64,000 bases of DNA from the NCBI GenBank assembly GCA_032622095.1, contig CP136064.1:148430864-148494863 (forward strand), in the 5' to 3' direction. Origin of the DNA: Siphonodentalium dalli. Its lineage: Eukaryota > Mollusca > Scaphopoda > Gadilida > Siphonodentaliidae. Positions 1 through 64,000 of this stretch are shown piece by piece; position 1 is the first letter of the stretch; each line of letters begins with the position of its first letter. The notes beneath the pieces were generated by a model. The model was not told the origin of the DNA. It did no database searches and saw only the letters and a program-made list of their open reading frames with translations. A program made the position numbers and the translations under genes.

Positions 1-2255
1 TCGTTCCCATCTACATGTTAATATTAACATCCATGATAAATATCATGATGATCAGACAAACAGTACGACCTGTAGCCCGTGCCAATGGATTGAATTTTGA
101 AATCCAAGATGGCTGCCAGCGGCCATGTTTTTTGGCCGTATGACCCCAAAATGACTCGTTCCCAATTACATGTCAATATCAATATTCATGACAAATTTCA
201 TGAAGTTCTGATCAAAGCTACAACCTGTAGTCCGCGCCAAAGAATTTAGTCACGCAAAGAGTAAAATCCAAGATGGCTGCTGGCGGCCATGTTTTTCGGC
301 TGAACGACCCCAAAATCACTCGTTCCCATCTACATGTCAATATTAACATCCATGACAAATTTCATGATGATCAGACGAACAGCACGACCTGTAGCCCGCG
401 CCAATGGATTGAATTTTGAAATCCAAAATGGCCACCAGCGGCCATGTTTTTTGGCCGAATGACCCCAAAATGACTCGTTTCCCATCTACATGTCAATGTC
501 AACATTCATGACAAAATTCATAAAGATCAGACCATAGGTACAACCTGTAGCCCGCGCCAAAGGATTTAGTCATGCAAAGATTAAAATCCATGATGGCTGC
601 TGGCGGCCATGTTTTTTGGCCGAACAACCCCAAAATCACTCGTTCCCATCTACATGTCATTGTTAACATCCATGACAAATTTCATGAAGTTCTGATCAAA
701 ACTACGACCTGTTGCCTGCGCCAAAGGATTTAGTCATGCAAAGAGTAAAATCCATGATGGCTGCTGGCAGCCATGTTTTTTGGCCGTATGACCCCAAAAT
801 GACTCGTTCCCATATACATGTCAATATCAATATTCATGACAAATTTCATAAAGGTCAGACCAAAGGTACGACCTGTAACCCGCGCCAAAGAATTTAGTCA
901 TGCAAAGAGTAAAATCCAAGATGGCTGCTGGCGGCCATGTTTTTCGGCTGAACGACCCCAAAATCACTCGTTCCCATCTACATGTCAATATTAACATCCA
1001 TGACAAATTTCATGATGATCAGACGAACAGCACGACCTGTAGCCCGCGCCAATGGATTGAATTTTGAAATCCAAAATGGCCACCAGTGGCCATGTTTTTT
1101 GGCCGAATGACCCCAAAATGACTCGTTCCCATCTACATGTCAATGTCAACATTCATGACAAAATTCATAAAGATCAGACCATAGGTACAACCTGTAGCCC
1201 GCGCCAAAGGATTTAGTCATGCAAAGATTAAAATCCATGATGGCTGCTGGCGGCCATGTTTTTTGGCCGAACAACCCCAAAATCACTCGTTCCCATCTAC
1301 ATGTCATTGTTAACATCCATGACAAATTTCATGAAGTTCTGATCAAAACTACGACCTGTAGCCTGCGCCAAAGGATTTAGTCATGCAAAGAGTAAAATCC
1401 AAGATGGCTGCCAGCGGCCATGTTTTTTGGCCGAACGACCCCAAAATGACTCGTTCCCATCTACATGTCAATATTAACATCCATGACAAATTTCATAATG
1501 ATCAGACGAACAGTACGACCTGTAGCCCGCGCCAATGGATTGAATTTTGAAATCCAAAATGGCCACCAGCGGCCATGTTTTTTGGCCGAATGACCCCAAA
1601 CTGACTCGTTCCCATCTACATGTCAATGTCAACATTCATGACAAATTTCATAAAGATCAGACCAAAGGTACGACCTGTAGCCCGCGCCAAAGGATTTAGT
1701 CATGCAAAGAGTAAAATCCAAGATGGCTGCTGGCGGCCATGTTTTTTGGCCGAACAACCCCAAAATCACTCGTTCCCATCTACATGTCATTGTTAACATC
1801 CATGACAAATTTCATGAAGTTCCGATCAAAATTACGACCTGTAGCCTGCGCCAAATGATTTAGTCATGCAAAGAGTAAAATCCAAGATGGCTGCTGACGG
1901 CCATGTTTTTTGGCCGAACGACCCCAAAATGACTCGTTCCCATCTACATGTCAATATTAACATTCATGACAAATTTCATGATGATCAAACGAACAGTACG
2001 ACCTGTAGCCCGCGCTAATGGATTGAATTTTGAAATCCAAGATGGCCACCAGCGGCCATGTTTTTTGGCCGAATGACCCCAAAATGACTCGTTCCCATCT
2101 ACATGTCAATGTCAACATTCATGCAAAATTTCATAAAGATCAGACCAAAGGTACGACCTGTAGCCCGCGCCAAAGGAAATTGTTGACGGACACACGGACG
2201 ACGGACGCCAAGCCATGGCAATAGCTCAAACTTACAAAAGTAAGTTGAGCTAAAA
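1..2255 (+). mobile_element. Hairpin-ended array of ~162 bp units (family F1), 5' end outside window
   Basis: About 14 head-to-tail units of ~160-162 bp fill this stretch. Each has the landmarks AAGATGGC, CGTTCCCATCTACATGTC and ACGACCTGTAGCC. Two unit types alternate, one continuing AATTTTGAAATCC and the other GGATTTAGTCATGCAAAGAG. The array ends in a GACGGACG-type stretch (2186-2205) and a terminal hairpin at 2222-2252. Reading frames of 60-70 codons here recur once per unit and are by-products of the repeat, not genes. Satellite-like units plus a terminal hairpin resemble bivalve pearl/HINE-type non-autonomous elements. That assignment is inference from architecture. Confidence 0.85.
2222..2252 (+). 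repeat. Terminal hairpin of F1 array
   Basis: TAGCTCAAACTTAC and GTAAGTTGAGCTA pair across an AAAA loop with one bulged base. The same structure closes the second F1 copy near 16306-16340. The sequence next to it changes abruptly to copia-like coding DNA, so this hairpin marks the element's 3' end. Confidence 0.8.
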
Positions 2256-2264
2256 AATGATGCA

Positions 2265-4298
2265 GTGACGATGTTTGGTAAAAGTATTCCACTTGAGTTT
2301 ACCTCCAGTGGGCATTACTGCATCAACCTCATGGACAAGGTAAATACTTATCACGATAGTTTAACTTCCAAACATGTGTTAATTAATTTTGCCTTGTTTT
2401 CTGATGAGGAAAAGAGAAAGACTTTGACGAAACTTCACAAACAATTTGCGCATGCTTCAATTGTTAAATTAACAAGTTTACTCAGGAAAGCTGATGAATC
2501 ACTGGATTTATCCCTTATCGAACCAATTCTCAAAGATATAATTTCTCGTTGTGAAACTTGCTGCAAGTACAAACAAACTCCTCCTCGTCCAGCAGTAAGT
2601 TTACCTTTAGCTTCAAGATTCAATGAAACTGTAGCTGTAGATTTACATCAACTTGAGAACAATCTCTGGTATCTACATATTATAGACTTATTCACAAAAT
2701 TTAGTGCTGCCTGCTTGATGGAATGTAAATCTCCGTCGCTATTTGTTGATAATTTTATGTAACACTGGATAGCAATTCATGGTGCTCCGGCTAAACTTTT
2801 CAGTGATTTAGGAGGAGAATTCAATAATGCTGTTGTACATGACATGGCTGGGAATTTCAATATTGAAATCAAAACTACTGCAGGATTTAGCCCGTTTAGC
2901 AATGGAATTTGTGAACGCCATAACAAATATCTTACAGAGTTACTCACCAAAGTGAAATACGACACGAAAAGCAAATGGCAAACTGCTTTGAGCTGGGCAC
3001 TCATGGCAAAAAATGCCCTTTCAAACATTCAAGGATTCAGCCCATTTCAACTTGTTTATGGAATAAACACAAATTTACCATCAACTCTGATTGACAAACC
3101 TCCAGCATTGGAAGGTTCAACTGCAAGTTCTGTGATTGGTGAGCATATTGTGTCTCTTCAAAATGAACATTATGTTACAGGAGACAAAGTCTATTACAAA
3201 CTGCCCAACATCGACAAATGGAAAGGACCTGGTATAGTGATTGGACAGGAAAGTGCAGTTGTTTTTGTCAGACATGGTGGATTACTGGTGAGAGTGCATG
3301 AAAGTAGATTGAAGAAAGAAACTTTTTTAGATAATTCAAACATTTCTTCAAACACAACATGTATAAAGAAACCTGTTGTATCTCCTCTGAATGACAAATT
3401 TGATCAGTTTGATGACTCAGACATTCCTAATTCTCCAATTGATGTCAACGATTCAGAGTTGGAATCAGAAACCAGCCAGGTTTCAACAAATTTCTCATCT
3501 GTACATCCTGATTCTGTACATAAACTTAGATCTGGACAAATAGTTTCATACACAAATGTTGATACTGGTGAAAAAGTCGAAGCCAAAATTCTTGGTCGTG
3601 CTGGAAAATCTACTGGAAGAAACAAAAATTGGTTCAACATAGAAATTGTTCAACCATCTGCATTGGAATCCTCACAAATATCGATTGACTTAGGGAAAGT
3701 GCATAACCTGTTAGAATCTTCTGGAAATCCTACAGAAAATGATATTAATTCTGTCATTGGTAGTGTGTCTGATGATTATTGCCTCATTACAAGTGACATC
3801 TTTGACGAGGCTAAATCTACAGAGCTAAAAAACTGGATTGAGAACAGTGTATATGAACGTGTTCCTGATACCAATCAGAAATGTGTGTCCACCCGATGGG
3901 TATGTACTTTTAAAGAAATTGATGAAAACAACAGAGTTCCTAAAGCAAGGCTTGTCGCTCGAGGATTCGAGGAAATTGATAAGGACTCTCTGATAAAAGA
4001 TTCTCCAACATGTTCAAGTGATTCCCTACGTTTAATACTTTCTATTTTTGCACAAAAACATTGGCAACCAGCATCAATAGACATTAAAGCCGCATTCTTA
4101 CAAGGATCAGACATCATACGAGATGTTTATATTCGACCACCTTCTGAGGCCAGTGAAAAACATGTAGTATGGCGTCTACTCAAATGTGTTTATGGACTGA
4201 CAGATGCATCATATCATTGGTACATTAAAGTAAATGAAGTTCTTACAAGTTGTGGGGCAACATGTTCTGTTATTGATCCAGCTGTTTATTACTTCAGG
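2265..4298 (+). pseudogene. Truncated copia-type (Ty1/copia) retrotransposon polyprotein: integrase and partial reverse transcriptase
   Basis: One frame carries an integrase zinc site: HxxxxH at 2436-2453, then CxxC at 2550-2561. The catalytic core follows, with Asp at 2640 and 2805 and Glu at 2913; the last two have exactly 35 residues between them (DD35E). A reverse transcriptase of copia order follows, with RWVCTFKE, KARLVARGFEE and the motif DIKAAFLQG (4080-4106), whose first Asp is catalytic. The integrase-before-RT order is typical of Ty1/copia. An in-frame TAA at 2760-2762 breaks the integrase core. Gag and protease are absent, because homology begins right at the F1 hairpin. RT homology is lost at about 4298, before the second catalytic (VDD) box, so there is no RNase H. 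The ATG at 2271 is not a native start. No LTRs are visible. This is a dead internal fragment. Confidence 0.9.
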
Positions 4299-4655: not shown

Positions 4656-5420
4656 TTGTTTTAATAATTACTATTATGGAAAGATTTATGTCCCTGGCTC
4701 CATCCATAATTGACCCGGTGACCCAATTTGAACAAATTTGAATCCCAGTCACACAAGGAACCACCATAACAAATATAAGCTAAATCGGCCTAATGGATCT
4801 TGATTTCAGAATTGCTATGGTGGGAAAGAGTTATGTTCCAGGCACGGACATTATTTGACTTGGTGACCCCATTTGACCAAATCAGAATCACAGTCACCTA
4901 GATATTATCCCCACCAAATATGACCTCTTTCGGTCTTGCGGTTCTGGAGAAGATGTTTTAAGAATTACTATGGAGGGAAAAAGTTATGTCCCTGGCTAGG
5001 GGGGGGGGTGCAGGAAAGGGAAAGTCTAATGAGTGTCAGTGATTTCATCAAAGATTTCATAACTCTGCAGATGTTTAATGACTTCAATTTTTTTTATATC
5101 TGTTTTCAAATGAAATATTTAATTGAGTAACTAACTAGTTAAATTTCAATTAAATGTATAAACAAGTTACTAGTATTAACATTTGTTTTTTTAAATTATT
5201 TATTATTTTAATTTTTCGTTAAATTTATCTAAGGAGTTCAATGTAGTTCAAAGAGTTATGGCCCTGGATTCATAATTATTTGACCTGGTGACCTCATTTG
5301 AACAAATCTGAATGTGAGTCACATAGGGAACATCCACACAAAATATGAACCCATTCAGTCCTATGGTTCTTGAGAAGATGATTCTTGATGGAAAAATGGA
5401 TTTCATCTCAGGTGAGCTAA
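4656..5420 (+). repeat. Dispersed tandem family F2, copy 1
   Basis: Diverged units of ~150-190 bp recur, with the landmarks GAATTACTATGG, AGTTATGTCCCTGGC and GACCTGGTGACCCCATTTG. The copy ends with TCTCAGGTGAGCT (5406-5418), one arm of the hairpin that closes F2 at 10950-10988. An AT-rich stretch (5080-5230) interrupts it. Non-coding. Confidence 0.75.
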
Positions 5421-5740
5421 AAACCTGAACAAAACGAATGAACACTCCATTAAATGTCCTCATAGTAGTGAACATCCATTCCAAATTTCATTGAGATCTG
5501 ACCACCGGTGGTGGAGATATCTGCCGTGAGAGACAAAAAGCCAACATTTCCAGATGAACAAAGATGAATATCTCTAGAACGGAAAACCTGAACAAAACGA
5601 TTAAACACTAAATTGAATGTACTCATTGTAGTGAACATCCATGCCAAATTTTATTGAGATCTGGGCACAGCTGTTCAAATTACAAGTGCACCGCTGGGCG
5701 GAGGTAACGTCCCCGACTGTACAATCAGAGAGGATTTTTC
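5421..5740 (-). repeat. Tandem family F3, inverted copy
   Basis: About two units read on the - strand as ...TAGAGATATTCATCTTTG..., GGAAATGTTGGCTTTTTG and ...GATCTCAATGAAATTTGG. The same family appears on the + strand at 57045-57880. Unit length is ~170 bp. It sits back to back with F2 and has no coding content. Confidence 0.75.
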
Positions 5741-5880
5741 TTATTTTTGTGCAAATACTTATTAAATGGCGCTTTGTAAAGTTATGTTATTCATGAGTAT
5801 TTAGTACGATAGAGGATGACTTGTTAAAATATGACAACACTTACAGAGACCTCACACGCAAGCAATATTAATGATGAAAA

Positions 5881-6473
5881 CCTGAATTTTCTAAGTCCAA
5901 AAAGGGGCGTAACTCTGGAAAAAATGGGCGGACGAAACCACGGCTATGGGGAAATATTGTCCCCCCGGCTGGTCTATTGGCATACCAAAGATCAACTGAA
6001 TTGAATTAGCGAAACCAAAGTTATGAGTTGAAACGTTCGTATGGACGGAATTTTCTAAGTCCAAAAAGGGGCGTAACTCTGGAAAAAATGGGCGGACGAA
6101 ACCGCAGTTAGGGGAAATCTTGTCCCCCGGCTGGTCTATTAGCATACCAAAGATCAACTGAATTGAGTTAGCGAAACCAAAGTTATGAGTTGAAACGTTC
6201 GTACGGACGGAATTTTCTAAGTCCAAAAAGGGCGTAACTCTGGAAAAAATGGGCGGACGAAACCGCAGTTATGGGGAAATCTTGTCCCCCCGGCTGGTCT
6301 ATTAGCATACCAAAGATCAACTGAATTGAGTTAGCGAAACCAAAGTTATGAGTTGAAACGTTCGTCCGGACGGAAGGACGGAAGGATGGACGGGCGGACA
6401 GACGGACGGAAGGACGGACGGACGGAGGGCTCCACTATATACCCCCAAATCTCCATCGGAGATCGGGGGCATA
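5881..6473 (+). mobile_element. Hairpin-ended tandem element F4
   Basis: Three units start near 5883, 6049 and 6209 (periods ~166 and 161 bp) and are nearly identical. They share GGGCGTAACTCTGG, GGGCGGACGAAACC and AAGTTATGAGTTGAAACG. A (GACGGA)n stretch follows at 6362-6427, then a hairpin at 6438-6473 pairing CCCCCAAATCTCC with GGAGATCGGGGG. The order repeats, GACGG run, hairpin matches other families in the window. Confidence 0.85.
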
Positions 6474-8537: not shown

Positions 8538-10920
8538 CAGGCCCCAAGCTAGGAGGCGACTAGGACGAAGTTCTCGCCTTCTCACCGCCGACTTCGCCCT
8601 CAGATGTCCGCAAGGCGAAAACGAAGTCGCCTTCCAAATTTGACCAAACTAGCTTTGGGATTTACGGTAATTTTACCGGTGGACTTGTTTTGTAAAAATA
8701 TATATAGTCTTAAAACTGTTCTAACGAGGCATTTTTAATTATACGTTGTACATTGTGTACTGTGTCCACGTATTCTAATCATATTGAGTGCTTTTGGAAA
8801 CGGCAAATTGCGCTTTGCAACGAAGTTTATGATGAGGTACTAGTACGTCTCAAGAAGACGTTAAGTCGTTACTTTGTTCTGGCAGGTCATTTTGCAACCA
8901 CAAATTGTATACCCGTAGCCGATCATGCAGTAACCTATGTAAACAATTAAAGCATGCTGTCTTTTTAATGTCTATGCATTTAAACTCTTAAAATATCCAT
9001 GAATTTTAAATTTAACGAAAGTAATTTGTGTCTGACTCTGTTTCCCAATCCAACGTTTTTACGTTTGGGAGTTGCAGATTTATTATGTAAACAAGCAGTC
9101 GCAGACGGCGGTATCCCCCGCCGAATTGTGCAGTTGGGGAAGTGCATTCTCAATATTGTTTGCGTTCTCAGTATGTGCTAAACAAGAGGTGGGATTTTGT
9201 CAAAAAGCCTGGCTTGCGAACTCATTTTAGGTACTGGTCATGGGAACGAATATACCAAAAATCTTTTAAATCTGTTGACATTCGTGGAAATTAGCCCTGT
9301 GACGTCGTCCATTAGCACACAAAAAAATAAACAAAGTCCAATAACTCTGCTGAAAATATCCGGCCGGACCTGGTTTGCGAACTCGTTCTAGATACTGGTC
9401 ATGTGAACTCATATCCAAAAAATCTTTGAAATCCGTTGACATTTGTGAAAATGAGCCCTGTGAAGTCGTCCATTTGCACACAAAAAAATAAACAAAGTCC
9501 AATAACTCTGCTGAAAATATCCGGCCAGACCTGGTTTGCGAACTCGTTCTAGATACTGGTCATGTGAACTCATATACCAAAAATCTTTTAAATTCGTTGA
9601 CATTTGTGGAAATGAGCCCTGTGATGTTGTACAAAAAAATAAACAAAGTCCAATAACTCTGCTGAAAATATTCGGCCAGACCTGGTTTGCGAACTCATTC
9701 TAGATACTGGTCATATGAACTCATATACCAAAAATATTTGAAATCCGTTGATATTTGTGGAAATGAGCCCTGTGACGTCATCTATTTTATTTGGTAAATT
9801 AGACAAAATTAATAAACAAAGTCCAATAACTCAGGTAAAAATAACCGGCCAGACCTGGCTTGCGAACTCATTCTAGGTAATGGTCAGGTGAACTCATATA
9901 CCACAAATCTTTGAAATCCGTATACATATGTTCAAGTTATGACTCTTACAAATTCGGGACGGACGGACGGTACAACAGACGGACGGAACCTATTCCTATA
10001 TCCCCCGCAAATTTTCAATTTGGCGGGGGATAACAATAGCACATGCTTGCTTACTATTCAAAATAGAGCATTGAATGTGCATTGAAAGTACTTAATTTAA
10101 TGTTCTTAGTTAAAACAAAGATCTGCATGAGAAACTAATACTATTCAAACTCCTTTAAAAAGGATTAATTTGTGTCAAAATGGTGTGTTTGCAAATTATA
10201 ATTGTTGTCAATCTATCGGCTGCCCACGTGCTTTAAGTTTTATGCCAGGTGTGTGAAGTCTCACTCCAAAATCATGAGAGTTATCATTTCTGTCAATCGT
10301 TGTAAATTAATTGCATGTACTTGGTTACAATGCAGGTATTTAAATACCTGTTTGTGTATATTATAAGCTCCACTGGTCTTTGTTAAGAAAACTTTAATCA
10401 CTATTGTAACACAGCTATCCAACTTGTCAAGTTTATTGCTTTAATCGGATTATCATTACTGATTATACGGTCCACGTTGGTATTCATACATTCTTTAGAA
10501 AAAAATTAAAAGCTTTTACAACTCCTTGATTAGTCTTTGTTTATTTTAACTGGACACCCACATTACAGCAGTGACCAAATGCCGTTTCCAAAAATTTTAA
10601 ATTTATAATAATTAATTTCTTCAGACATTAAAAGTTGATCATTATTGAGTCAACATTTTTTATTTTTAAATAAAAATTATAAATTTAACAAATACAATTT
10701 CATGTTATCTATCTATACAGGTACTATACTTGCGCTATATTTTATTTTGGTAACCATGTTTTATCATGGTATTTAATCTATTTATTTATGTGATAAACCG
10801 ATAAATAAAAAGTGTTTTTTTAAGTCTCTCCACTTGTCCCTATTTTGGGGTGAAGTCTCCCTAAAATCTCCAGAGGGAGAAGTCACTTCTCCCTGTTTTC
10901 AACCCCTAGCTTGGGCCCTG
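8538..10920. mobile_element. hAT-superfamily element, non-autonomous, with exact 8-bp target duplication
   Basis: The ends are CAGGCCCCAAGCTAGG (left) and, reversed, CAGGGCCCAAGCTAGG (right). They are flanked by identical TGTTGACA at 8530-8537 and 10921-10928. CAG-starting inverted ends plus an 8-bp duplication are diagnostic of hAT. Removing 8538-10920 rejoins an F2 element that then runs into its hairpin. Both subterminal zones are rich in GAAGTCGCC / AGAAGTCACTTCTCCC-like motifs. No BED finger or hAT dimerisation domain is visible in any frame, so I infer a non-autonomous copy. It carries the F5 array inside it. Confidence 0.9.
9105..10032 (+). mobile_element. Hairpin-ended tandem element F5, nested in the hAT
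   Basis: About five units of ~160 bp start near 9206, 9368, 9527, 9678 and 9848. Landmarks are GACCTGGTTTGCGAACTC, GATACTGGTCATGTGAAC and AACAAAGTCCAATAACTC. A GGACGGACGG stretch (9958-9985) and a hairpin at 9999-10032 (TATCCCCCGC against GCGGGGGATA) close it. The left edge carries the matching GGTATCCCCCGCCG at ~9112. Open frames on both strands here are repeat artefacts. Confidence 0.85.
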
Positions 10921-14024: not shown

Positions 14025-14325
14025 TGTTTCCGCCTAAAGCCGTAATCGGCTCCTGCATTGTATGATTGTAATAATACATACAGATACAGATAGATAGTTA
14101 AACTTAATGATGTATGTCCAGGATAATGAATAATCACGACGCCACATGATAAGCAACTCAATATTCCTGACACAAATAAAGGAAACTTGAATATTGCATA
14201 GTCATATATACCACTATAACAGTGGAATACCACTATTATGTGATTATAATAATAATAATACAGTAATAGTGGAATTCAGGATGTGCCTGACCTGGTGAGA
14301 CTCAGAGAGAAAGAAAGCAAGCAAA
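14025..14325. other. Spacer between foldback and F1 copy
   Basis: AT-rich DNA with a short ATAATAATAATA run near 14248. Nothing else is seen. Confidence 0.5.
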
Positions 14326-16345
14326 ATGAAAGTGTCAATGACACTGTAGCTCAACTTGGAAAGGGAATAATTTCATGTGTTAAAGTCAATGGAGTGATTA
14401 GGAATGTGAAAAGTTGAAAGGTCTAGTTATGCAAAGAGTAAAATCTAAGATGGCCGCTGGCAGCCATGTTTTTTTGCCAAATGACCCCAAAAAGACTCGT
14501 TCCCATTTACATGACATTATTAACATCCAGTACAAATTTCATGATGATCTGACAAATGATACGACCTGTAGCCTGTGTCAAAGGATTTAGTCATGCAAAG
14601 AGTAAAATCCAAGATGGCAGCTGGCAGCCATGTTTTTTGGCCAAATGACTCCAAAATGAATAATTCCCATCTACATGTCATTGTTAACATCCGTAACAAA
14701 TTTCATGAAGATCTGACCAAAGCTACGACCTGTAGGCAGCGCCAAAGGATTTTAGTCATGCAAAGATATAATCCAAGATGGCTTCTGGTGAACATTTTTT
14801 TTGGCCGAATGACCCCAAAATGACTCGTTCCCATCTACATGTAAATATTAACATCCATGACAAATTTCATGATGATCAGACGAGCAGTATGACCTGTAGC
14901 CCGCGCCAATCAATTGAATTTGAAATCCAAAATGGCCGCTGGTGGCCATGTTTTTTGGCCGAATAACCCCAAAATAACTCATTCCCATCTACATGACAAT
15001 GTCAACATTCATGACAAATTTCATAAAGATCGGACCAAAGGTACGACTTGTAGCCCGTGCTAATGGATTGAATTTTGAAATCTAATGGCCGCTGGCGGCC
15101 ATGTTGTTTGTCCGAATGACCCGAAAATGACTCGTTCCCATCTACATTCCAATTTCAACAGACATGACAAATTTCATGATGATCAGACTAAAGGTACGAC
15201 CTGTAGCCCGTGCTAAAGGATTTAGTCATACAAAGAGTAAAACCAATATGGCTGCGGGCGGCCATGTTTTTGTGCCAAATGACCCCAAAATTACTCGTTC
15301 CCATCTACATGTCATTGTTAACATCCATGACATATTTTATGATGATCCGACCAAAGGTACGACCTGTAGGCCGTGCCAAAGAATTTAGTCATGCAAAGAG
15401 TAAATCTAAGATGGCTGTCGGCGGCCATGTTTTTGGGCCGAATGACCCCAAAATTACTCGTTCCTATCTACATGCCAATGTTAACATTCATGATAAATTT
15501 CATTATGATCAGACCAAAGGTACGACCTGTAGCCCGTGCTAATGGATTGAATTTTGAAATCCAAGATGGCCGCTGGCAGCCATGTTGTTTGTCCGAATGA
15601 CCCCAAAACGACTCATTCCCATCTACATACCAATTTCAACAGCCATGACAAATTTCATGATGATCAGACTAAAGGTACGACCTGTAGCCCGTGCTAAAGG
15701 ATTTAGTCATACAAAGAGTAAAATCCAAAATGGCTGCTGGCAGCCATGTTTTTTTGCCGAATGACCCCAAAATTACTCGTTCCCATCTACATGTCATTGT
15801 TAACATCCATGACACATTTTATGATGATCCGACCAAAGCTACGACCTGTAGGCCATGCCAAAGAATTTAGTCATGCAAAGAGTAAATCTAAGATGGCTGC
15901 CGGCGGCCATGTTTTTGGGCCGAATGACCCCAAAATTACTCGTTCCCATCTACAATGGCTGCCGGTGGCCATATTTTTTGGCCGAACAACCCCAAAATTA
16001 CCCGTTCCCATCTACATGTCAATATTAACATCCATGACAAATTTCATGATGATCAGACGAACAGTACGACCTGTAGCCCGTGCTAATGGATTGAATATTG
16101 AAATCCAAGATGGCCACTGGCGGCCATGTTTTTTTCCTGAATGACCCCAAAATGACTCATTCCCATCTACATGTCAATGTTAACATTCATGATAAATTTC
16201 ATAATGATCCGACCAAAGGTACGACGTCACCTGTAGCCCGTGCTAAAGGAAATTGTTGACGCATCACGCACACACACACGCACACACGGACGACAAAGCC
16301 ATGGCAATAGCTCAAACTTTACAAAGTAAAGTTGAGCTAAAAATG
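14326..16345 (+). mobile_element. F1 hairpin-ended tandem element, apparently complete copy
   Basis: It begins with GAAAGTGTCAATGACACTG (containing the palindrome GTGTCAATGACAC) and TAGCTCAACTTGG. This start is shared, inverted, by 59700-59850, so it is the family's 5' end. About eleven ~160 bp units of the 1-2255 type follow. The array closes with CACACACGCACACAC (16266-16290) and the hairpin TAGCTCAAACTTTAC / GTAAAGTTGAGCTA at 16306-16340. Units are more diverged than in the first copy. One unit is truncated near 15953, where CATCTACA runs straight into ATGGCTGCC. Confidence 0.85.
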
Positions 16346-16653
16346 GATACGTCTAATTTTTCGACCACATTATCTGCCATATATGAAAGGGCTTTGTGGA
16401 CCCAATTTTTCCAAAATTTATTTGATTCTTAGATATGGACTTTGTTTTTCAATCTTGGACCATTGCCTGTAAATTTTATTTTTTTAAATCTCAATAAAGT
16501 TCACATTTTGTATTTCTAACATAATCCACCATGAAGTATACTCTCAAAATGTTGCATCAATGGGCATGGTTTCTATTATTACTAATATACATGAACAGAA
16601 TCCTTTATTTGGACTGAAATTTTGAAAACATTGGGTCCACAAATTTTAAGCCC
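16346..16653. other. Unassigned AT-rich spacer
   Basis: No repeats, exon signals or motifs recognised. Confidence 0.5.
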
Positions 16654-16657
16654 TTAA

Positions 16658-16931
16658 AGGCACGTGAGGCCTTAGTTGTCGAAAATATTCATATTTGTTC
16701 TATTCTAATCACCGTAAACAGAAAAACATTAAAACGCATACAGTTTCGTTCATATATACCATGACCATCACGTAAACAGCATGTTATCATAAAGACCTAC
16801 TATATTTTACCTAAGCAAGAGCATGATTGTGTTACAGAAGACAGCACAATGCTACTGGCTTATAATATAATCACACACAAATGGCATAAAGTTAAACGCT
16901 CTTTATTAGATCTAGTTCCAACTTCCATATC
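16658..16931 (+). mobile_element. TTAA-type element, short copy lacking the LINE (paralogous empty site)
   Basis: Starting after TTAA (16654-16657) with AGGCACGTGAGGCCTT, it matches the reverse complement of 21195-21311 and then, without a gap, of 19805-19940. The junction at 16790/16791 (GTTATCAT | AAAGACC) is therefore an empty version of the LINE insertion site at 19940-21195. The right end is lost where the copy meets the MULE-like repeat at 16942. Confidence 0.8.
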
Positions 16932-17069
16932 ACGGGAGCTCATAAAAGGCGAACACAACCGAACATAACCGAACACAAGTCCAAATAATGGGAAATTTCA
17001 CAAATAAAGTTCATAGGCATATGTATTCATGTTCACACTATTACTATACGAAGTTTGGTGGAGTTTGGT

Positions 17070-18154
17070 CATGGATTAGTTTATCCGCTGATAGGTGATA
17101 ATTAATATCTGCCAGATGGGATTTGGCAGGCTTTATTCGCTTTAACCCCCCCCCCCCCCCCCCCCCCCCATTTATTATTACAGTCCATTTGTACAATATG
17201 GAAGTTTAGATGGATCATAGTGCAGAGAAGGATCCAGGGATGTTTTGATACCTGTTACAGGTTTGGGTGCCCAAACTATAGAGACCCAAATGTCCCCAAA
17301 TTCCATGTAGATAGTATTTATTCAAGTTGGATCTTCCATATTTTCAAGGAATTTTTCTATAATTCAACAAAATGTACTAGTAATGCAAATCATCAGCCTG
17401 CAGATGATATATAGTCTATAATATGGAGCCTTTATTTGCACAATGAAGTATCCAGTACTGAATATTTTAACATCCAAATTTATATGGGCACATACTCAAA
17501 TACAGAACAGGTGTCCCCAAAAATTATCTGGATCCTTCCCTGTCATAGTGGACAAATGGGAACATATCAGCACGCCCGGACTTCTAAGAAGTAGTAAATC
17601 GGTTGCTGAGTTAAGATACTCATGCGGAAATGGTTCGGAGAGTATAATACAAACCACAAAACAAATAATTTTCAAATAGTTTATTGCAATCATAAGTAAA
17701 CATTGTAAAATTATATATATGCAAAACATAGATCTTTGTTACTGTACTCTTCTCTATTCATGACCACCGACTAGCTCTTTTGTTTTCACCGATCACCATC
17801 TGTTTTTTGTATTTTTTTTTTATCACCATGCCTGTTATTTGGATTTACAGTTGTTATTTGTGACATCGTGTCGACATGTCCTGGTTCATAGATATAATGA
17901 TTAACATGCTGCAGCAATTTCTGATAGCTGTATGACGACACTGATATTGGTTTTCGTCACGTATGTTTATACACCGACAGACCGTTATTAGGTTCTTCGT
18001 CGTAACACCAGGACATGTATGTGTCTGGCCAACATCCAATCAGGCGATATCTTCATATGTTTGTTATAGATCTGGCGATTCTACGTCGTGTTATAGTTGG
18101 CGACATAACATCTCTTGGTGATGGTGCAAGGAATTCTGGTGGAATTGATGTCAA
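17070..18154. repeat. Non-coding interior with poly-C run
   Basis: A run of ~24 C lies at 17147-17170, a likely length-variable site and assembly risk. CCAGGACATGT near 18007 mirrors ACATGTCCTGG at 17874-17884. CAATATACTATA repeats occur at 18175-18202. Scattered frames show no recognisable protein. Confidence 0.5.
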
Positions 18155-18749
18155 TCATAGTATATGTTCAATGTACAATATACTATACAATATACTATAT
18201 ATAGTCTGACATGGCTTCTTGGCAATAGCCGCGGTTTTCGGTATCGTCAAACGTCCGTCAGTCGAAATTTGTAATTTTGCCGAAGATTCTGGAAGATATG
18301 ATATTAGTCGGTTAAATCTTCTGTCGCGTTGGTCAGCCGTCATGTTCGTCCATGTCTGATTTTTCACTCTTAGAGCAGTTGAATGTTTTGCTAGACCTGT
18401 CATAGTTTCCACAGCCATGCAATGCTCCTCGAATATCTCGCATCTGATCGTCAACTATTTCAGAAAGATTGTCCGTCAAGTCTGTCGGTCGAAGAACTTT
18501 CCAGTTGTTTTCTAGTTTTATAATATTATTTAGACTTTCACAATTATTATTTGTCCACAATTTAGGAATGGAAGAATTTTTATGACGAGCATTAAAAACT
18601 TTAAGTTTTAACCTTTCCATGAAGTTAAATAAATATTTATTTTTGTAATTGTTGGTTATGTCTGTTGTGACCTCTTCGTAAATTAAGCGTTTGTCTATTG
18701 TGAGGAGACCTTTCTCACTGTTAAAAATTTTACCAACTAATTTGCTCAC
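18155..18749 (-). pseudogene. MULE-like transposase C-terminal part (copy A)
   Basis: Two overlapping - strand frames join across a frameshift near 18360-18410. The first reads FMERLKLKVFNARHKNSSIP, WTNNNCESLNNIIKLENNW and DQMRDIRGALHGCGNY. The second reads NMTADQRDRRFNRLISYLP, LQISTDGRLTIPKTA and AIAKKPCQ. The order WxNNNCESxNxxIK, W, RDxRxALxGxGxY, SxDGxLxxPxTxxxAKKPxQ is what I remember for Mutator-like transposases abundant in mollusc genomes, where NNxCE lies near the catalytic acidic residue. The upstream catalytic Asp boxes are missing; the frame starts ~25 bp from the inner MULE's left end, consistent with disruption by that insertion. Confidence 0.7.
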
Positions 18750-19479
18750 CTTTTCTTGACTCTCAGTCCACTGTTACTGGACATAATTCATAGGGTCCTA
18801 CTAAACAACGAACACAAACGAACACAAACGAACATAAACGAACACAGGTCCAAAAAGCGGAGTAGAAGGGTGAAATTTGGTTTGTGGGTGCGCGTGGGTC
18901 CATTCTATGTGTATGTGGTGTTATTTCCAACTTTGATGATTTATTTTTTGAGTTATTAGCATTATTTGAATACAAAACTACTAAACAACGAACACAAACG
19001 AACATAAGATTAGCGGCAGTGCAGAGGCTACCATGCAGGTGTTAATTAACTACGGCTTACTCTGTCTCCTTGTTTTTATTGCAAGATGATTGTCAATTTT
19101 ATCACTGATGGCAATACAAACACGGGGAAACATCAGAGGTCGGCGTTTTAATGCATAGCTAACAAAACATTTGAGTGAATGTGAGTGAGTCATTGTTGTC
19201 AGTCTCTGAGATGACTATATATATATTTTCTCAGTCTCGGAGATCACTCTGGTAAATGCTATTTCTGCTTGCTTTCCCGATACACGCATACACTATGTAC
19301 CAGGCATCTTAAGGAAAATCTCAATCGTAATTTAAGTAAAACAGACAGTGATCAAACTGTCAATACGATGGAAAAGTATTCAATAGCGAGAGCGGCTTGG
19401 TAACAATAAAAAACAAAATCATTTATGACGAATTACAGACAGACATAATTGACAAATATATGTGACAACAGACGATACC

Positions 19480-19575
19480 TTACATTTATGAAAAGACTAA
19501 AGACGAAAGTTTTCAATGCTAGAAAACAAAATTCAACAATTCCGAAATGTTGGACAAATAACAATTATGAAAGCA
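19480..19575 (+). pseudogene. MULE-like transposase relic (copy B), first piece
   Basis: The + strand reads FMKRLKTKVFNARKQNSTIP then KCWTNNNYESI, collinear with copy A (FMERLKLKVFNARHKNSSIP, KLWTNNNCESL). The conserved Cys after TNNN is Tyr here. The reading stops at the TTAA target site (19576-19579) of the inserted element. Confidence 0.75.
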
Positions 19576-19579
19576 TTAA

Positions 19580-21311: not shown

Positions 21312-21333
21312 TTAATAATATAATTAACAAAAA

Positions 21334-21640
21334 AATTGACTGAGTTTACAGACAATTTAAATGAAACAGTGACTGACCAACTGCGTGACATTCGAGTGGA
21401 GGGGATTTCACATTACCAGGCATTGCATCATCTTTGGAAGTGAGACACGAAATTTAAACAAATATATGACGGCCGAACAACGAGACAGACTAATGCGAAG
21501 ACTTCTTAATTTTGTGAGTGACAATTCCAAATTCCAAACTTCAACTGACGACAATTAACTATACCCAAAACTACCGCTCTCGCAAAAAAAAACTGGACAA
21601 AAAAAAGGAAAGAGTGAAGGCATCAAAAACCAAGACGATC
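21334..21640 (+). pseudogene. MULE-like transposase relic (copy B), second piece
   Basis: The + strand reads LTEFTDNLNETVTDQLRDIR, then a stop, then across frame changes YMTAEQRDRLMRRLLNFV and FQTSTDDN. These match DLTDNLSEIVDDQMRDIR, NMTADQRDRRFNRLISYL and LQISTDGR of copy A in order. Multiple stops and shifts make it dead. Confidence 0.7.
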
Positions 21641-23460: not shown

Positions 23461-23511
23461 GAACAGTTGGCTGAAAACAATATCACAAAATGATTTTATT
23501 TTTAATATACC

Positions 23512-42956: not shown

Positions 42957-44520
42957 TGTGTACCCATACCATGTATGGTACACATAATGCCGACATCCGG
43001 ATCAACCATCCGTCGTTCGTCCATCCGTCTGTCATTATATCCGATTCGATTGATATCCGATTCGATTACTCGAATATTTTTAATCGTATCGTGTTCAAAT
43101 TTTATGTGCATGTTTATGATGACACACTCCTCACCAGTATAGTTTTTGGTATCGATCGGTTGATCAGTTTAGAAATTATTAACACTTTGCATCCGCACAT
43201 AGGCATGAGCTATCCGATGCTGTAACCAAAGTATTTTTTGTCCGATTGTGTTCATATTTGATATGTAGGTTTATGATGACACACACACACCTCACCAGTA
43301 TAATTTTTGGTATCGATTGGTTGATCGGTTTAGAAAATAATTAACCCTGCACACAAATGCTATCTGATGCATCTAAGTCAAACAATTTTCTTCTGATATG
43401 CCTAATATTTCTTACCTAGGTTGTTCTTAGCACGTTCTTCATCTGTATGGTTATTGGTATCGTTTAGTTAACCCTTTCTGCTCTTGTTTTTAAATAGAAT
43501 TCATCCAAGCTGTGTTGACTTAAAATATTTTTCATCTGATCTCCACCAAATTTGGTACATATGGTCCTTACCCCGAAATACAGAGTTATGGCCATTTAAA
43601 ATTCAAGTAACTGATAATGTAATCAATGCCTGCACTGTGACTGAGCTTAGAAGAGAAGAGAACTTTTGGCATAGCACAGAGTGTATTATTGGAAATTGAG
43701 TTATGTTTCACTGGACACTAAATAGAGATACTGGTAGATAGCATGGATATAGCAGAGTCTGTTGATAACACTTGTCAAAACTGTGATTGATGACTCTGTT
43801 TTCTGTGCAGTATTTAGTTAACCCCTTTGTTGAAACAGGTTCATGACATTAGACACTGACTTATTGTATACATGGGTTTCTAAATCCAATGACATGCTTT
43901 TTATGGACTTTTTGTGTTTATCAGTTCATTAGTTTGGGTAAGTTTAACCCCATTCTATCCGATTCATAACTCAAATATTTCCCTTGATTATGTTTATAGC
44001 TCTTGGCATAGTTTATGATAACACACCCCTAACCTGCATAGTGAGGTTCGTTTGGTTTATTTGCTTAAAAATATTAACATCCTCCACCAATCCTGTTGAC
44101 ACAATGTGATAACTAAATATTATTCACATGGTCGCTATATAAATAATTGCAACCATGTTAATGATGATACATTCTTCACCTGTATAGATTTTGGTAAATA
44201 TTAACCATAACTTTAATTATATTTCTGCTGTTTACATACATTATATCTTTCCAATGATCAGCTTAGAAGAAAATTAACCCACCCCATTCCATAGTCATAC
44301 AGTATGCTATCCAATGTAATGAATCTAATATTTTCAATCTGACCAATCTCATATCCTACCTCCAGCTATCTGAAAATTCTGCATTAAAACATTTTATATC
44401 CAATCATTATCAATCATTTTATATCCAGGTCCATACATCCCTCACTTGTATAGATGTTCAGGTATTGATTGGTTTTTTGATTGGGAAATATTAACCATTT
44501 TCTCCCATCTAAATGATCCC
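42957..44520 (-). mobile_element. Hairpin-ended tandem element F9, copy 1
   Basis: Hairpin TGTGTACCCATACCATG / TATGGTACACAT at 42957-42984, then ATCCGTCGTTCGTCCATCCG. Diverged ~165-180 bp units follow with TATGATGACACAC, TTTTTGGTATCGATCGG and AGAAATTATTAAC, fading towards 44520. The family recurs at 53838 and 63586. Confidence 0.75.
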
Positions 44521-50156: not shown

Positions 50157-50869
50157 GTGAGTTTCTATAAAATAATTGCCTGCCTCATATGCATGATATA
50201 CAACTTTGATCCCATCTTTAGTGCATGTGATCAATAATACATCTCCACTCACAAGGAGTATGGTACTTATACATATACTGGATTACATGGGTTACTGGAT
50301 GTTAATAAAATTTGTTGTGGATGCTCATCATACTTTCAAAATGACACCATTATGGCATATGTGACGTTGCTAATAATTTGTTCAAAATCTACCTAGCAAA
50401 ATGAGAACACAATACGTAGAAATTAATGGTGCTAAATCTCTGAGTATTTTATACAATGTGGTGTCCCACAAGGGTATATATGTATGTTTTATTCACACAA
50501 TAATTAGGTTACAACAAAGCAACAATAATAACTAAAATATCAGGTGTAATTATTGTTAAGGAGTGGCATAACCAGGAGTGGCTGTCTTCCTTTCACTCCC
50601 GTTGTCAATAGAATAAGTAATTTATCAATGGCATAACCTCAAGTTGAGGTGCTAATAAAGAAATACTGGAATCTATAATATCAAAATATTGTATTATGTA
50701 CATATACATGTATAGTTACGGTTATGAAGGCGTGTGTATGGCAATTAATGAACACTTTCTAATAGTAAGTCACTTAAATAACACTGATATTAAATGCGTA
50801 TATGATATGAGTGTATTTTAGGTCTTTTACTCTTTCCCTGATATGTAAATGATATGCACAGAAGCACTG

Positions 50870-53837: not shown

Positions 53838-54720
53838 TGTTACCCATACCATAGTATGGTAAACATAGTGTCAACGTCCGGATTGACCACTCGTCGTAAG
53901 TCTGTCTGTCTGTCCGTCTGTCCGTAGACACTTTACGCATAATGCGATAACTGAAACATTTTCTATTCGATCAGAACCAAATTTGGTATGTGAGTTTCTC
54001 GGCCCAAAATACAGTTCTAATATGGGTTTGATCAGTTTTTTTTACAGAGCTATGGCCCTTTTTCGACTTAGAATTCACGCATTCTGCCATAACTCAAACA
54101 GTTTTTATCTGATTGGAACCAAATTTGGTATGTGAGTTTCTCAACCCAAAATATTAATAGAGTTCGAATATGGGTTTGATCCAATTTATTTGAAAGGAAT
54201 TATGACCCTTTTTTTGCTCAATTTAACAAAACAAAAATTAATACAAATTTTTTTTTTAACTTTTATATAATAAAAAAATAATTATTTTTTTTTTTTAAAT
54301 GTCGTTGACACTTTCGTTTGTTTTCATTTAGATATTGATGATTATGATACAAGTTGATTAAAAGGTTCCCAATGTGTCCCTTTAAATATTTAGTAATTGG
54401 TTAGATGAAGTCAAACATAAACAACACTGCTGGCATCTGTCAAATTTGACTAATGGCAACATGAAACTCTGGTTTCTCCTATTGAAATTCCATTACAGGG
54501 TGTGATGTCCCTCACCTATATATACAGTGTCTTCTATATCCCATTGATATGCTTAGAAAATAATTAACCCATTCCAAGGTTCCCATAGACATATATAATG
54601 TACAAAGACTCTTCCTCATATCTCTTATCTATGATTATCTTTGCACACTAGTCACTTCTATTGATTTTGGTATTGACTGATTAATTGACTTTTGAAAAAT
54701 ATATTAATTAACCCATCAGG
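53838..54720 (-). mobile_element. Hairpin-ended tandem element F9, copy 2
   Basis: Hairpin TGTTACCCATACCATAG / TATGGTAAACATA (53838-53868), then GTCTGTCTGTCCGTCTGTCC. Units carry AACCAAATTTGGTATGTGAG (53977, 54118) and GGCCCTTTTTCGACTTAGAA (54055). Later units match the F9 tail (AGAAAATAATTAACCC). Confidence 0.8.
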
Positions 54721-57044: not shown

Positions 57045-57880
57045 AATTATACAAAAGGGGGGTATACTGTTTTGCACCTGTCCGTCCGTCGAGCCGTCTG
57101 TGCGTCCGTCCGTACGTCCGTCCGATGTCTGTTCATGTCATAACTTGAACAGTAGTGCTCGGATCTCAATGAAATTAGGTATGGATGTTCACTACTATGA
57201 GGACATTAAATAGAGGGTTCCATCGTTATGTTCGGATTTTCCATTCTAGAGTTATTCATCTTTGTTTATCTGGAAATGTTGGCTTTTTGGTCTGTCTGGT
57301 GTCTGTTCATGTCGTAACTTCAACAGTTGTGCTGAGATCTCAATGAAATTTGGTACGGATGTTCACAACTATGAGGACATTAAATACAGGGTTCCATCTT
57401 TTTGTTCGGATTTTCCATTCTAGAGTTATTCATCTTTGTTTATCTGGAAATGTTGGCTTTTTGGTCTGTCTGGTGTCTGTTCATGTCGAAACTTCAACAG
57501 TTGTGCTGGGATCTCAATAAAATTTGGTATGGATGTTCCTACTATGAGGACATTCAATAGAGGGTTTCATTGTTCTGTTCTGCTTTTCCATTCTAGAGTT
57601 ATTCATCTTTGTTTATCTGGAAATGTTGGCTGTTTGGTCCATCCGATGTCTGTTCATGTCATAACTTGAACAGTAATGCTCGGATCTCAATGAAATTTTG
57701 TCTCATGGATGTTCACCACTATGAGGACATTTAATGGCACATTCAACTGTTTTGTTTTGGGTTTTTGTTCTATAGTTATTCATCTTTGTTTATATGAAAA
57801 TGCTAATTTTTGTGTCCATTTGTCTGAGTATAGCAGTCATAAGTTATAGATATGCCACACTATGTGGTATGCCACAAGGG
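57045..57880 (+). mobile_element. Hairpin-ended tandem element F3, copy 2
   Basis: ATTATACAAAAGGGGGGTAT (57046) and a (GTCC)n stretch with CCGTCGAGCCGTCTG open it. Four ~172 bp units follow near 57126, 57300, 57473 and 57646, with TGTCTGTTCATGTC, GATCTCAATGAAATTTGG, TTCACTACTATGAGGACATT and AGAGTTATTCATCTTTG. The right end has TATGCCACAAGGGGGTATGC (~57877). Same family as 5421-5740. Confidence 0.85.
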
Positions 57881-58019
57881 GGTATGCACCGGACGACAGT
57901 CCATCTCGTTTTAGCAATTTTTATGCCCGTTAGCGTGATAACTTTAACAAATGTCAACCGATTCCATTCATTTTTATGTGACCACTCGTCGTTCGTCTGT
58001 CTGTCTGTTCGTCCGTCTG

Positions 58020-58290
58020 TCCGTCAAGAATCATCTCCTCCAGAACCGTAAGATGGAATGGGTTCATATTTGGTGTGGATGTTCCCTAGGTGAATCACAT
58101 TGAGATTTGTTCAAATGAGGTCACCCGGTCAAATAGTTGCGAAGCTAGGACCATAACTCTTACAACGACTTCTTCTCAAATTTTATTGGGCCGAATGGGT
58201 TCATATTTGGTACAAAGGGTCCTTGGGGGACTGTGATTCAGATTTGTTCAAATGAGGTCACTGGGTCGAATGTGGGCGAAGCCAGTGACT
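58020..58290 (-). repeat. Tandem family F2, inverted copy
   Basis: After GTCTGTCTGTTCGTCCGTCTG (57990-58022), two units read on the - strand with GACCTGGTGACC-like and GAGAAGA / ATGAACCCATTC motifs of F2. Confidence 0.7.
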
Positions 58291-58696
58291 TAACTAAAAA
58301 AAAAAAAATTGTTAAATTCAGATTTTTGGAATTTTCACCTTGCTCAATTTAACAAACAAACAAATTATTTTTAAAACATGTTATAAAATTTGAAAAAAGT
58401 GACACCATTATAACATCTGCAGAGTTATGAAACTTTAGTCTTTAATGAAATTTCGGAATTCCATCCTCCCTCCCACATGGCCCAGACCCAACCTTCTCTC
58501 CCCCACCCTGCACCCAACCAACATCCCTTCCAACCGATATCATCTCCAACTTTAATACCTGTTCTATCCAGAAGCAGATATATCTCGGCAGAGAGACAGA
58601 GAGAAAGAGACACAGGTCATTAATCTAGATTAGAATAATATATGTCATCTGGCAGCTTTGTGTAAACAACACTGCTAGCAAATTAAAACAATCTGC
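58291..58696. other. Intron DNA, no supported feature
   Basis: A pyrimidine-rich C stretch (58465-58530) and a GAGAGACAGAGAGAAAGAGA run (58590) only. Confidence 0.4.
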
Positions 58697-59129: not shown

Positions 59130-59260
59130 TTTCAAAGAAAAATTGGGGGGTATATTGGATTGAATTTGTCTTCTGTCTGTCAGGCGGTGCACTTTTTTCC
59201 AGAATTATGACCCTTTGCCAGAGTTATGACCTAGGGTTGAACTGAGAGAAATGCCCCACT
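59130..59260 (-). repeat. Hairpin-type repeat fragment F11
   Basis: TTTTTCAAAGAAAAATTGGGGGGTATATT resembles the terminal hairpins of the tandem families; TCTGTCTGTCAGGCGGTGCA and CAGAGTTATGACC follow. Truncated by the F1 copy. Confidence 0.5.
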
Positions 59261-59339
59261 ATTACTTCATTTTCTCTCTAAATATAGCCAATACTCAGCA
59301 TACAGTCGGGGCATTGCCCTTGTTTGAGAATTTACAGGC

Positions 59340-59850
59340 ATGTTTACGATTGCCTCTAGATGGGAATTTTTTTATGAAAACCATTTTGGATTTTATTCTT
59401 TGCATAACTAAATCCTTTGGCACACCCTACAGACTACATCCATCATCCCATCATCATCAAACTTCATATGGATCTTCAGGCTGAACTTTAGATGGATGCC
59501 AGCAATTTTTTGCAAATTACGTTGAAGCCATCGTCCATCTTGAATTTTACTCTTTCCATTACTAAATCCTTCGGCATGCCCTGCAGACGACATCCCTCAT
59601 CTGATCATCACCAGACTTCATATGGAACTTCTTGGTGACCACTAGACTGGAGCCATCAAATTTTTCCGTAATTTGTTGAAACACATGGCTGCCTGCGGGC
59701 ATCTCGGATTTTAATTTATGAAAAACTCTTCATGTTTACGTTTAGTTTTATTTAGGCATTTAACTTTTCTCATTCCTAATCGGTTCATTGACTGAAACAC
59801 ATGAAATCATCCCCTCTCCAAGTTGAGTTACAGTGTCATTGACACTTTCA
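59340..59850 (-). mobile_element. F1 tandem element, inverted short copy
   Basis: On the - strand it starts GAAAGTGTCAATGACACTG (59850-59830) and AACTCAACTTGG, as at 14332. About three units with GGATTTAGTAATG and AAGATGGCC-type sequence follow. It ends near 59340 without the hairpin. Confidence 0.8.
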
Positions 59851-60912: not shown

Positions 60913-60954
60913 CATAGTATAAATATGACAACGGAGTGGTACTGTGACATTCCG

Positions 60955-63249: not shown

Positions 63250-63500
63250 CACACCGGGCGACAGTGTATTTGTCGCCCGCTCAACCGGGCGACAGCGTGA
63301 TTTGTCACCCGCCATGTGACCTGGTTCCAGCCAATGAAAGTGGAGATTGTGGGTAGCAGGGTAACAATGTACAGTTGGTGCCCACGCTTGAGTGACACAG
63401 AGATTTGTTGCCCACTCGAGACCTGGAATGTCACCCGAGGGTCGAGAGCAAAGCGACAAATCCCTGTGTCTCACAAAAACAAGGGTGACAACTTATTTGT
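63250..63500. repeat. GGGCGAC / GTCGCCC inverted-repeat cluster
   Basis: CCGGGCGACAGTGTATTTGT, GTCGCCCGCTCAACCGGGCG and TTGTCACCCGCC, then GTCACCCGAGGGTCGAGAG and CAAGGGTGACAAC, form alternating short inverted repeats. The last part is a direct repeat of 60971-61010 on the other side of the Crypton relic. Confidence 0.65.
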
Positions 63501-63585
63501 TATCTGGCAAAGGAGTGCACACTAATTGCATGTGTATATTTAATCTAGTTTGAATAGTTCATTTTATGCTGAAATCATCGCCTTT

Positions 63586-64000
63586 TATACATGTATGGTA
63601 CACATAATGCCGAAAATCCAGATCAACCATCCGTCGTTCATCTGTCCGTCTCTCTTGTCTGTAGACACTTTCAATCTGACGCAATAACTCAAGTATTTTT
63701 CATCGATATCATGTCCATATTTTTGCATGTTTATGATGACACACCCCTCACCTGTACAATTTTTGGTATCGATCAGTTGATTGGTTTAGGAATTATTAAC
63801 ACTTTCCATCCACCAGTAGACATCATCATCATGTTCTACAGGACAAGTCTATGAAGACTTTCCGTCCCGGTAACAATTACATGTTATGTTGATTATGGTT
63901 ATGAATGCCACACAGAAATGTTCTATTTCCATGATCATCGTATTGATATTGATTGCTGTATGAATACCCATCGAGTCGTAGTTTGAACTCTTCAGTCGTG
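63586..64000 (-). mobile_element. Hairpin-ended tandem element F9, copy 3 (continues past window)
   Basis: TTATACATGTATGGTACACA and ATCCGTCGTTCATCTGTCCG begin it, followed by units with TATGATGACACACCCCTCAC and TTTTTGGTATCGATCAG. Nearly the same as 42957-43200. Confidence 0.8.

Follow-up and report, generated by a model that had tools for sequence, protein, structure and literature searches.

Introduction

Cg_HINE of the oyster Crassostrea gigas consists, according to the available sections of its description, of a 5' subterminal inverted repeat (subTIR), a complementary inverted repeat, a GTCC-type microsatellite, a 3' subTIR and a 3' palindrome, with tandem repeats mostly of 140-180 bp in constant orientation, and it inserts at TT without duplication (PMC7492417). 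We analysed a stretch of 64,000 nt from the scaphopod Siphonodentalium dalli (assembly GCA_032622095.1, 2.23 Gb in nine contigs; contig CP136064.1, positions 148,430,864-148,494,863, forward strand), the whole of which is called the window below. Its tandem-repeat families share the full Cg_HINE anatomy, in another genome and as other families. They are HINEs, that is, non-autonomous rolling-circle transposons of the Helentron branch; the kind is already known and the families described here are new. Our joint reading, to which we give a probability of about 0.88, is that these families are HINEs, that their units go back mostly to one ancestral unit, and that elements of different families within about 50 kb mostly lie in the same orientation owing to a directional property of the chromosome.

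The DINE-1/HINE elements and Helentrons of arthropods show the same terminal features, the Helentron proteins carrying Rep, helicase and endonuclease (PMC4067079, available sections). Pearl elements, DTC84 and MgE of bivalves, which combine short arrays of ~160-bp repeats with a microsatellite, are likened to the present elements by their description (PMC7492417, in part). Canonical Helitrons such as Helraiser have, as here, a 3' hairpin near a CTAG-type end and no target-site duplication; the S. dalli elements differ in lacking the Helitron 5' TC start and the A^T target rule, and in having a 5' hairpin, an arm copy and a microsatellite, which Helitrons do not show (PMC4778049 and PMC5876387, available sections). 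The HINE/pearl precedent named in a first-pass annotation of this DNA is confirmed by the presence of the full published anatomy, and its proposal of a shared rolling-circle machinery acting on terminal hairpins was, in our judgement, right.

Elements of the window and their frequency in the assembly

Array finding, reading of the loci and script-checked arm coordinates showed that tandem arrays with a period of 154-174 bp adjoin GTCC tracts and hairpins in the window. The hairpin half TATACCCCC occurs seven times against 0.32 expected, and the tract motif GACGGACGG 12 times against 0.07. Seven elements present the complete build of hairpin, tract and units. In an eighth (57047-57907) the outer arm is decayed, and three more are fragments. 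The elements, together with further matches to a profile of the units, are the following.

1..2252, - strand: E1; 13.5 units of 164 bp (1-2177), all unit-profile matches on the - strand; GTCC-type tract 2185-2207; 5' hairpin of TAGCTCAA type, arms 2222-2235 / 2240-2252; 3' end beyond the window
5261..5682, - strand: decayed unit cluster adjoining E2, 3 unit-profile matches
5878..6473, - strand: E2; 3 units of 162 bp (5884-6375); tract 6367-6426; hairpin arms 6438-6446 / 6465-6473; a 3' end was looked for and not found
9092..10032, - strand: E3; 4.4 units of 161 bp (9208-9921); tract 9958-9986; hairpin arms 9999-10008 / 10023-10032; arm copy 9112-9121; 3' end CTTG at 9092
about 14325..16339, - strand: E4; units of 164 bp (14417-16222); tract about 16257-16290; hairpin arms 16308-16322 / 16326-16339; arm copy 14347-14357; palindrome 14331-14345; exact 3' terminus uncertain
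16222..25679: orientation switch from - to +, an interval full of nested inverted-repeat elements
25605..26367, + strand: E5; hairpin arms 25606-25615 / 25629-25638; tract 25651-25667; 3 units of 170 bp (25722-26223); arm copy 26327-26336; palindrome 26341-26353; end CTCTAG 26362-26367
30614..30711, + strand: single decayed unit (unit profile, E=4.4e-6)
31670..32634, + strand: E6; hairpin arms 31672-31680 / 31693-31704; tract 31711-31760; 4.3 units of 171 bp (31766-32577); arm copy and palindrome GGGCGTATATTGCACGCCC 32603-32621; end CTCTTG 32629-32634
36364..36764, + strand: E7; hairpin arms 36365-36374 / 36385-36394; tract 36411-36428; two diverged units; a 3' end was looked for and not found
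43055..43592, + strand: decayed unit cluster, 3 unit-profile matches
50285..50343, + strand: weak unit match (unit profile, E=8.8e-4)
53944..54223, + strand: two units, no ends recognised (unit profile, E=1e-19)
57047..57907, + strand: E8; decayed hairpin 57048-57066; tract 57080-57124; 3.9 units of 174 bp (57126-57802); arm copy 57878-57886; palindrome 57891-57902; end ATCTC 57903-57907
57926..58330, + strand: E9, fragment of the TAGCTCACC family; tract 57988-58025; diverged 154-bp units; without hairpin
59130..59322, + strand: E10, remnant read by eye; half hairpin 59145-59154; one partial unit; palindrome GGGGCATTGCCC 59308-59319; end CTTG
59381..59720, + strand (by eye): fragment with 1.9 units of 154 bp of E1/E4 type, without ends and without unit-profile match at E<=1e-3

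In the assembly, the exact 16-mer (GTCC)x4 is matched 13,090 times, counting overlapping matches, and the reversed pattern 82 times. We sampled 35 distinct tracts, picked by the GTCC tract itself and all located on contig C1 within its first 20 Mb: 15 out of 26 returned loci, the other 11 having been dropped as overlapping the same tracts, and 20 of 36 further listed. A same-strand match to the unit profile, which was partly derived from these loci on which it was tested, was found within 700 bp downstream of 34 of the 35 tracts and an opposite-strand match in one, and the stretch upstream of the tract matched in 1/34. A perfect stem of at least 9 bp within the 105 bp before the tract was present in 17 of the 35 loci. 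Shuffled sequences showed such a stem in 1.4% of cases, and stretches taken elsewhere in these loci in 10 of 105; several further loci have interrupted stems before the tract.

The shared build claimed in the first-pass annotation holds for hairpin, GTCC tract and units, both in the window and, collected in the sample, in 34 of 35 tracts with same-orientation units. The pair TATACCCCC/GGGGGTATA, given there for many families, is one among about eight hairpin types. Unit lengths, which the annotation called nearly constant, do cluster, but only loosely: they range over types from 150 to 191 bp, and in 17 of the 35 loci no array of period 120-230 was present at the array finder's threshold.

Orientation of neighbouring elements

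The 58 unit-profile matches of the window comprise 35 on the - strand, all ending by 16222, and 23 on the + strand, all starting from 25679. Grouped by script, they form 12 clusters, four on - and then eight on +, with a single switch; a random arrangement of 12 clusters would show at most one switch with a probability of 24/4096.

For concordance on C1, the input was the places among the matches listed for three 3' ends, the tract and one hairpin, and all pair counts given below, with the model and controls based on them, are among the matches listed. A tandem duplication with a 22,920-bp step (C1:9459012 and C1:9481932), visible from two element families, was present, and this 22.9-kb duplicated block was removed. 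For tract and 3' ends taken together, the share of same-strand pairs was 39/50 at 5-20 kb, 61/89 at 20-50 kb, 82/139 at 50-100 kb and 114/224 at 100-200 kb, by which distance the effect has faded. Consecutive elements of four end-defined families lay on the same strand in 48/57 cases at 5-20 kb (31/35 across families), 47/68 at 20-50 kb (32/47 across families) and 34/56 at 50-100 kb (16/32 across families). A family added later, that of the TAGCTCACC hairpin, agreed with the nearest element of another family in 17 of 20 cases at 5-20 kb (p=0.0013) and in 7 of 15 at 50-100 kb, and concordance within families at 5-100 kb was 19/26 for A and 29/37 for C. A switching model gave a mean domain of 175 kb (bootstrap 52-458 kb) with a log-likelihood gain of 21. 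Two unrelated repeats showed no agreement with the HINE strand (6/13, 20/32 and 31/61 by distance, few pairs), and the first of these control repeats showed no strand concordance with itself (2/9 and 14/29, few close pairs).

Nearby HINEs of different families are, in summary of these counts, mostly co-oriented: a directional property extending over tens to a few hundred kb appears to bias their insertion or survival. The account of Cg_HINE, in its available sections, mentions no orientation domains (PMC7492417), in which the S. dalli elements differ from it, and the open-access literature, to which our search was confined with subscription literature outside its scope, yielded no recognisable paper on orientation domains of Helitrons. 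Should the domains hold in other chromosomes and species, they would constitute, within that open-access literature, the first case of a eukaryotic rolling-circle transposon reading chromosome directionality; the target mechanism would become testable, and element orientation would provide a sequence-only map of replication or transcription polarity without functional data.

As to the cause, we tentatively consider, at a little under even odds, that HINE orientation may be a fossil record of replication-fork direction, + domains corresponding to rightward forks, - domains to leftward forks, and each - to + switch to an initiation zone. Replication-fork polarity is attractive because related bacterial HUH transposons use lagging-strand DNA. 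IS608 and the IS200-IS605 family transpose as single strands and need or target lagging-strand DNA (PMC5876387, PMC4778049, PMC6006769, available sections), a preference that serves, as an analogy only, as model for the HINE orientation bias. On this reading the transposition complex, as in IS608, would insert its strand where the lagging-strand template is single-stranded, and an initiation zone would be predicted in the window, between 16.2 and 25.7 kb. The authors of Helraiser name, in the available sections, replication or transcription as possible sources of single-stranded DNA (PMC4778049, PMC5876387).

Transcription polarity is the main rival of the replication reading, and a serious possibility that nonetheless falls clearly short of probable. 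Insertion into single-stranded transcribed DNA, or selection against one orientation in introns, would make the elements follow the strand of genes. The mean domain of 175 kb, with its bootstrap interval, would also plausibly suit the size of gene neighbourhoods in a 2.2-Gb genome, and the + half of the window contains a single gene-like open reading frame (ORF) not evidently derived from a mobile element, at 55469-56884, which lies on the + strand. Against general intron selection, however, the two other repeats ignore the HINE strand, in small numbers, and a concordance above 80% at 5-20 kb is stronger than we would expect if intergenic insertions were frequent.

Concordance is unlikely to be a by-product of composite or tandem elements, in which blocks of HINEs were dispersed or duplicated together. 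Such blocks exist, as seen in the 22.9-kb duplication and around Helentron ORFs, where 27/27 unit clusters and 23/23 ends lie on the strand of the ORF in related, non-independent copies. Nevertheless, only four of the 102 same-strand pairs at 5-50 kb have a spacing that recurs, to within 150 bp, in a further pair of the families concerned, and the concordance at 20-50 kb given above persists for consecutive elements and across families.

GC skew relative to the element strand averaged -0.066 over 35 upstream flanks (12/35 positive, p=0.033), with p=0.68 for 15 long flanks and p=0.38 for 13 downstream flanks; flank skew was not used in judging the cause of orientation. Within the orientation-switch interval of the window, inverted repeats of 127 and 198 bp, 94% complementary, are nested at positions 16942-22611 and carry CGAACACAAC-type motifs.

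Homology of the units

Thirteen units were compared, one per hairpin type, of which nine were array consensuses and four were excised manually from the sequence following the tract. Of the 78 pairwise comparisons, 28 scored above all 100 dinucleotide shuffles in sense and none in antisense, and the sense score exceeded the antisense score in 69 of 78. With a leave-one-out profile, 12 of the 13 types scored above all 200 shuffles in sense, against 1/13 in antisense (5.1 vs 3.3 bits). Three conserved boxes follow each other in the units, ATAACT, AAATTTGGTATG and AGAGTTATGCCCCTTTTTCGACTTAG. No exact match to the box GAGTTATGGCCCTTTTTCGACTTAGAA was present in viral contigs, and of literature text, one unrelated paper contained four short unit strings.

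Judged from these comparisons, most unit types appear to be diverged descendants of one ancestral ~160-bp unit, in an orientation fixed relative to the hairpin, and the hairpins and tails seem to have changed faster than the three conserved boxes. The families had initially been described as unrelated, which the profile contradicts for most unit types, and a constraint on geometry had been suggested from their constant length. This suggestion is unsupported: the simpler account is that the shared length was inherited from one ancestral unit, so that geometric constraint is not required. A common unit dissolves the puzzle of same length with different sequence, and favours HINE families that diversify together with their repeats over repeated capture. 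The oyster study, in its available sections, took most monomer groups as unrelated, with two conserved segments noted between CL4 and group 1 (PMC7492417), whereas most units join one profile here.

The opposite explanation, in which unrelated ~160-bp sequences were captured repeatedly by HINE ends and retained for their length, through nucleosome-scale spacing or replication geometry, seems to us quite unlikely. It would agree with the clustering of lengths at 150-191 bp, with the one unit type without detectable similarity to the others, and with the several independent acquisitions argued for in the oyster, where 51.41% of monomers measure 160-180 bp (PMC7492417, available sections), but 12 of the 13 types have sequence in common, with order and orientation conserved.

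Ends and insertion sites

From 5' to 3', the build consists of a TTAT start, outer arm, loop, inner arm, GTCC tract, units, the repeated inner arm, a short palindrome and CTNG, followed by TT; the recurrence of the inner arm, then the palindrome and CTNG before TT, is seen in the families whose 3' end was found. Pairing of the outer arm would be possible with the inner arm of the 5' hairpin as well as with its copy near the 3' end. One of three exact 3' ends is present in 12 of the 35 sampled loci: CTCTAG in L009, L037, L052 and L054, as in E5 of the window, CTCTTG in L023, L040 and L050, and CTCTCG in L035, L039, L043, L045 and L046. In the window, the 3' subTIR copy and palindrome were located in E3, E4, E5, E6 and E8. 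The three 3' ends occur 4,552 (the E5 end), 8,394 and 2,271 times in the genome, against 1, 2 and 1 for reversed controls, and one hairpin 4,455 times against 0. The E8 family was represented by 24 separate copies, which all terminate within 11 bp of one another; 20 of them start within 18 bp. The first-pass annotation had taken non-aligning ends or widely scattered lengths as signs of coincidence; the ends do differ in sequence between families, the architecture is constant, and the scatter of lengths (150-191 bp) is modest, which does not bear out a coincidence.

Empty sites were recovered for three insertions. For L045 and L046, an element-free copy of the host repeat is present in L010 and another within L046; in the case of L009, the flanks, when joined, were matched in 40 of 40 scored places, three of which were read and are identical. 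Joined flanks were matched for 2 of 16 among the sampled loci and 1 of 5 in the genome search, all 40 scored candidates belonging to that one. The three insertions all fit TTAT...CTNG placed 5' of TT without target-site duplication, T runs at the insertion points leaving one or two bases ambiguous; one target is A^TT and two are inside a T run. In place of the 5'-TC start, CTRR end and A/T insertion of canonical Helitrons, the elements start with TTAT and end in CTAG, CTTG or CTCG.

DNA folding of five 5' ends gave stable hairpins in four (z from -6.6 to -1.9) and z -1.65 in the fifth. Among five 3' ends, two had z about -2 and three folded no better than shuffles; the 3' palindromes rest, therefore, on sequence and not on energy.

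In the mechanism that we propose, a Helentron RepHel protein would act in trans and nick the 5' end of the element, the strand would be peeled off during replacement synthesis until the 3' palindrome signals termination, and the freed single strand, or a circle, would be joined into T-rich DNA. Foldback or miniature inverted-repeat (MITE-type) transposons moved by a DDE transposase, which the terminal inverted sequences and the 5' hairpin might recall, are a highly improbable explanation in view of the asymmetric ends, the lack of target-site duplication and the insertion before TT.

Candidate autonomous Helentron partner

A search of the assembly with PF14214 gave at least 151 matches (150 of 457 candidates scored). 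By motif reading (L001; motif rule from the available sections of PMC4067079), one group is a canonical Helitron, and the other presents ORFs of up to 2,864 aa. Helentron copy A of this genome carries OTU (PF02338, 4.8e-9) and DUF6570 domains together with Rep (PF14214, 1.8e-23) and PIF1 (PF05970, 9.8e-30). Considering these domains, Helentron machinery would be available in the genome as a candidate mover of the HINEs.

Comparison with this candidate partner covered two 99% identical copies (A and B), the ends of one further copy and two more families (P and Q). On the 3' side, homology of the Helentron copies extends past every compared stretch. As candidates for the common autonomous partner called for in the first-pass annotation, Helentron-type RepHel genes are present, and in the copies compared their ends were not matched to a HINE family, whereas arthropod HINEs are tied to autonomous partners by end identity (PMC4067079, available sections); the oyster study, as far as its available sections go, also left the partner open (PMC7492417).

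A 5' module shared by HINE and Helentron, suggested by a HINE 3' end lying directly before the ORF of A and B, was dropped as a candidate, homology continuing upstream of the arrays. One Helentron ORF of 2,739 aa, from L055 4005 to L056 2221, has OTU and DUF6570; the stretch before its ATG resembles the 3' end of E1/E4 HINEs and is followed by a polypyrimidine-AG, as if a HINE tail gave the splice acceptor. At L068 1878-3253, 154-bp units are arrayed ahead of the Helentron ORF. Many family-A copies have such an upstream array, bases 5-68 of the family-A query matching repeatedly at ~154-bp steps.

Weighing of the joint reading

Several results weigh against the joint reading. Among the matches listed, the same-strand share falls below one half at 200-1000 kb (0.41-0.46), which may reflect real alternation or inflated variance; the TAGCTCACC family agrees with its nearest neighbour of another family in 11/17 cases at 20-50 kb (p=0.17), and concordance within families at 5-100 kb is 11/19 for T and 3/8 for G. 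Other unit clusters inside the sampled 2.4-3-kb loci lie on the same strand in three cases and on the opposite strand in two. As regards the units, their rotation and four of the 13 choices were set by hand, the 191-bp type of the TCGGAGGACTAT hairpin fails the profile test (3 of 200 shuffles reach its score), and the passes of TAGCTCACC (7.6 vs 3.8 bits) and TAGCTCAACTT (6.0 vs 4.8 bits) are narrow. No exact 3' end was found in 23 of the 35 sampled loci, through decay, membership of other families or too short a stretch. On the side of the candidate partner, Exo_endo_phos (PF03372) in copy A scores 8.4e-4 and 19.6 bits, below the Pfam cut-off of 24.5; stretches of up to 29 kb did not reveal the termini of the Helentron itself, with no end match to a HINE family; and the Helentron loci examined are rich in HINE ends, complete HINEs appearing nested in them.

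Other features of the window

The window gave no tRNA and no Rfam family, and Pfam, applied to 10 of its ORFs, gave no match beyond a copia-type reverse transcriptase and, weakly, a zinc finger. These belong to the remains of a Copia-type retrotransposon at 2244-4343 (RVT_2, weak zf-H2C2) adjoining the E1 hairpin. The open frame on the + strand at 55469-56884 encodes 472 aa with a cysteine/histidine cluster and has no Pfam match (E<=0.01) and no PDB match (E<=0.1). Two foldback-like elements are also present. In the one at 12872-14024, a GGACGATTGGTACCTTG-type minisatellite forms the inverted arms, which are 63-72 bp long and about 1 kb apart; the second, at 23554-24216, carries seven GCTAACTGGGACCTTG copies on one side and their reverse complement on the other.

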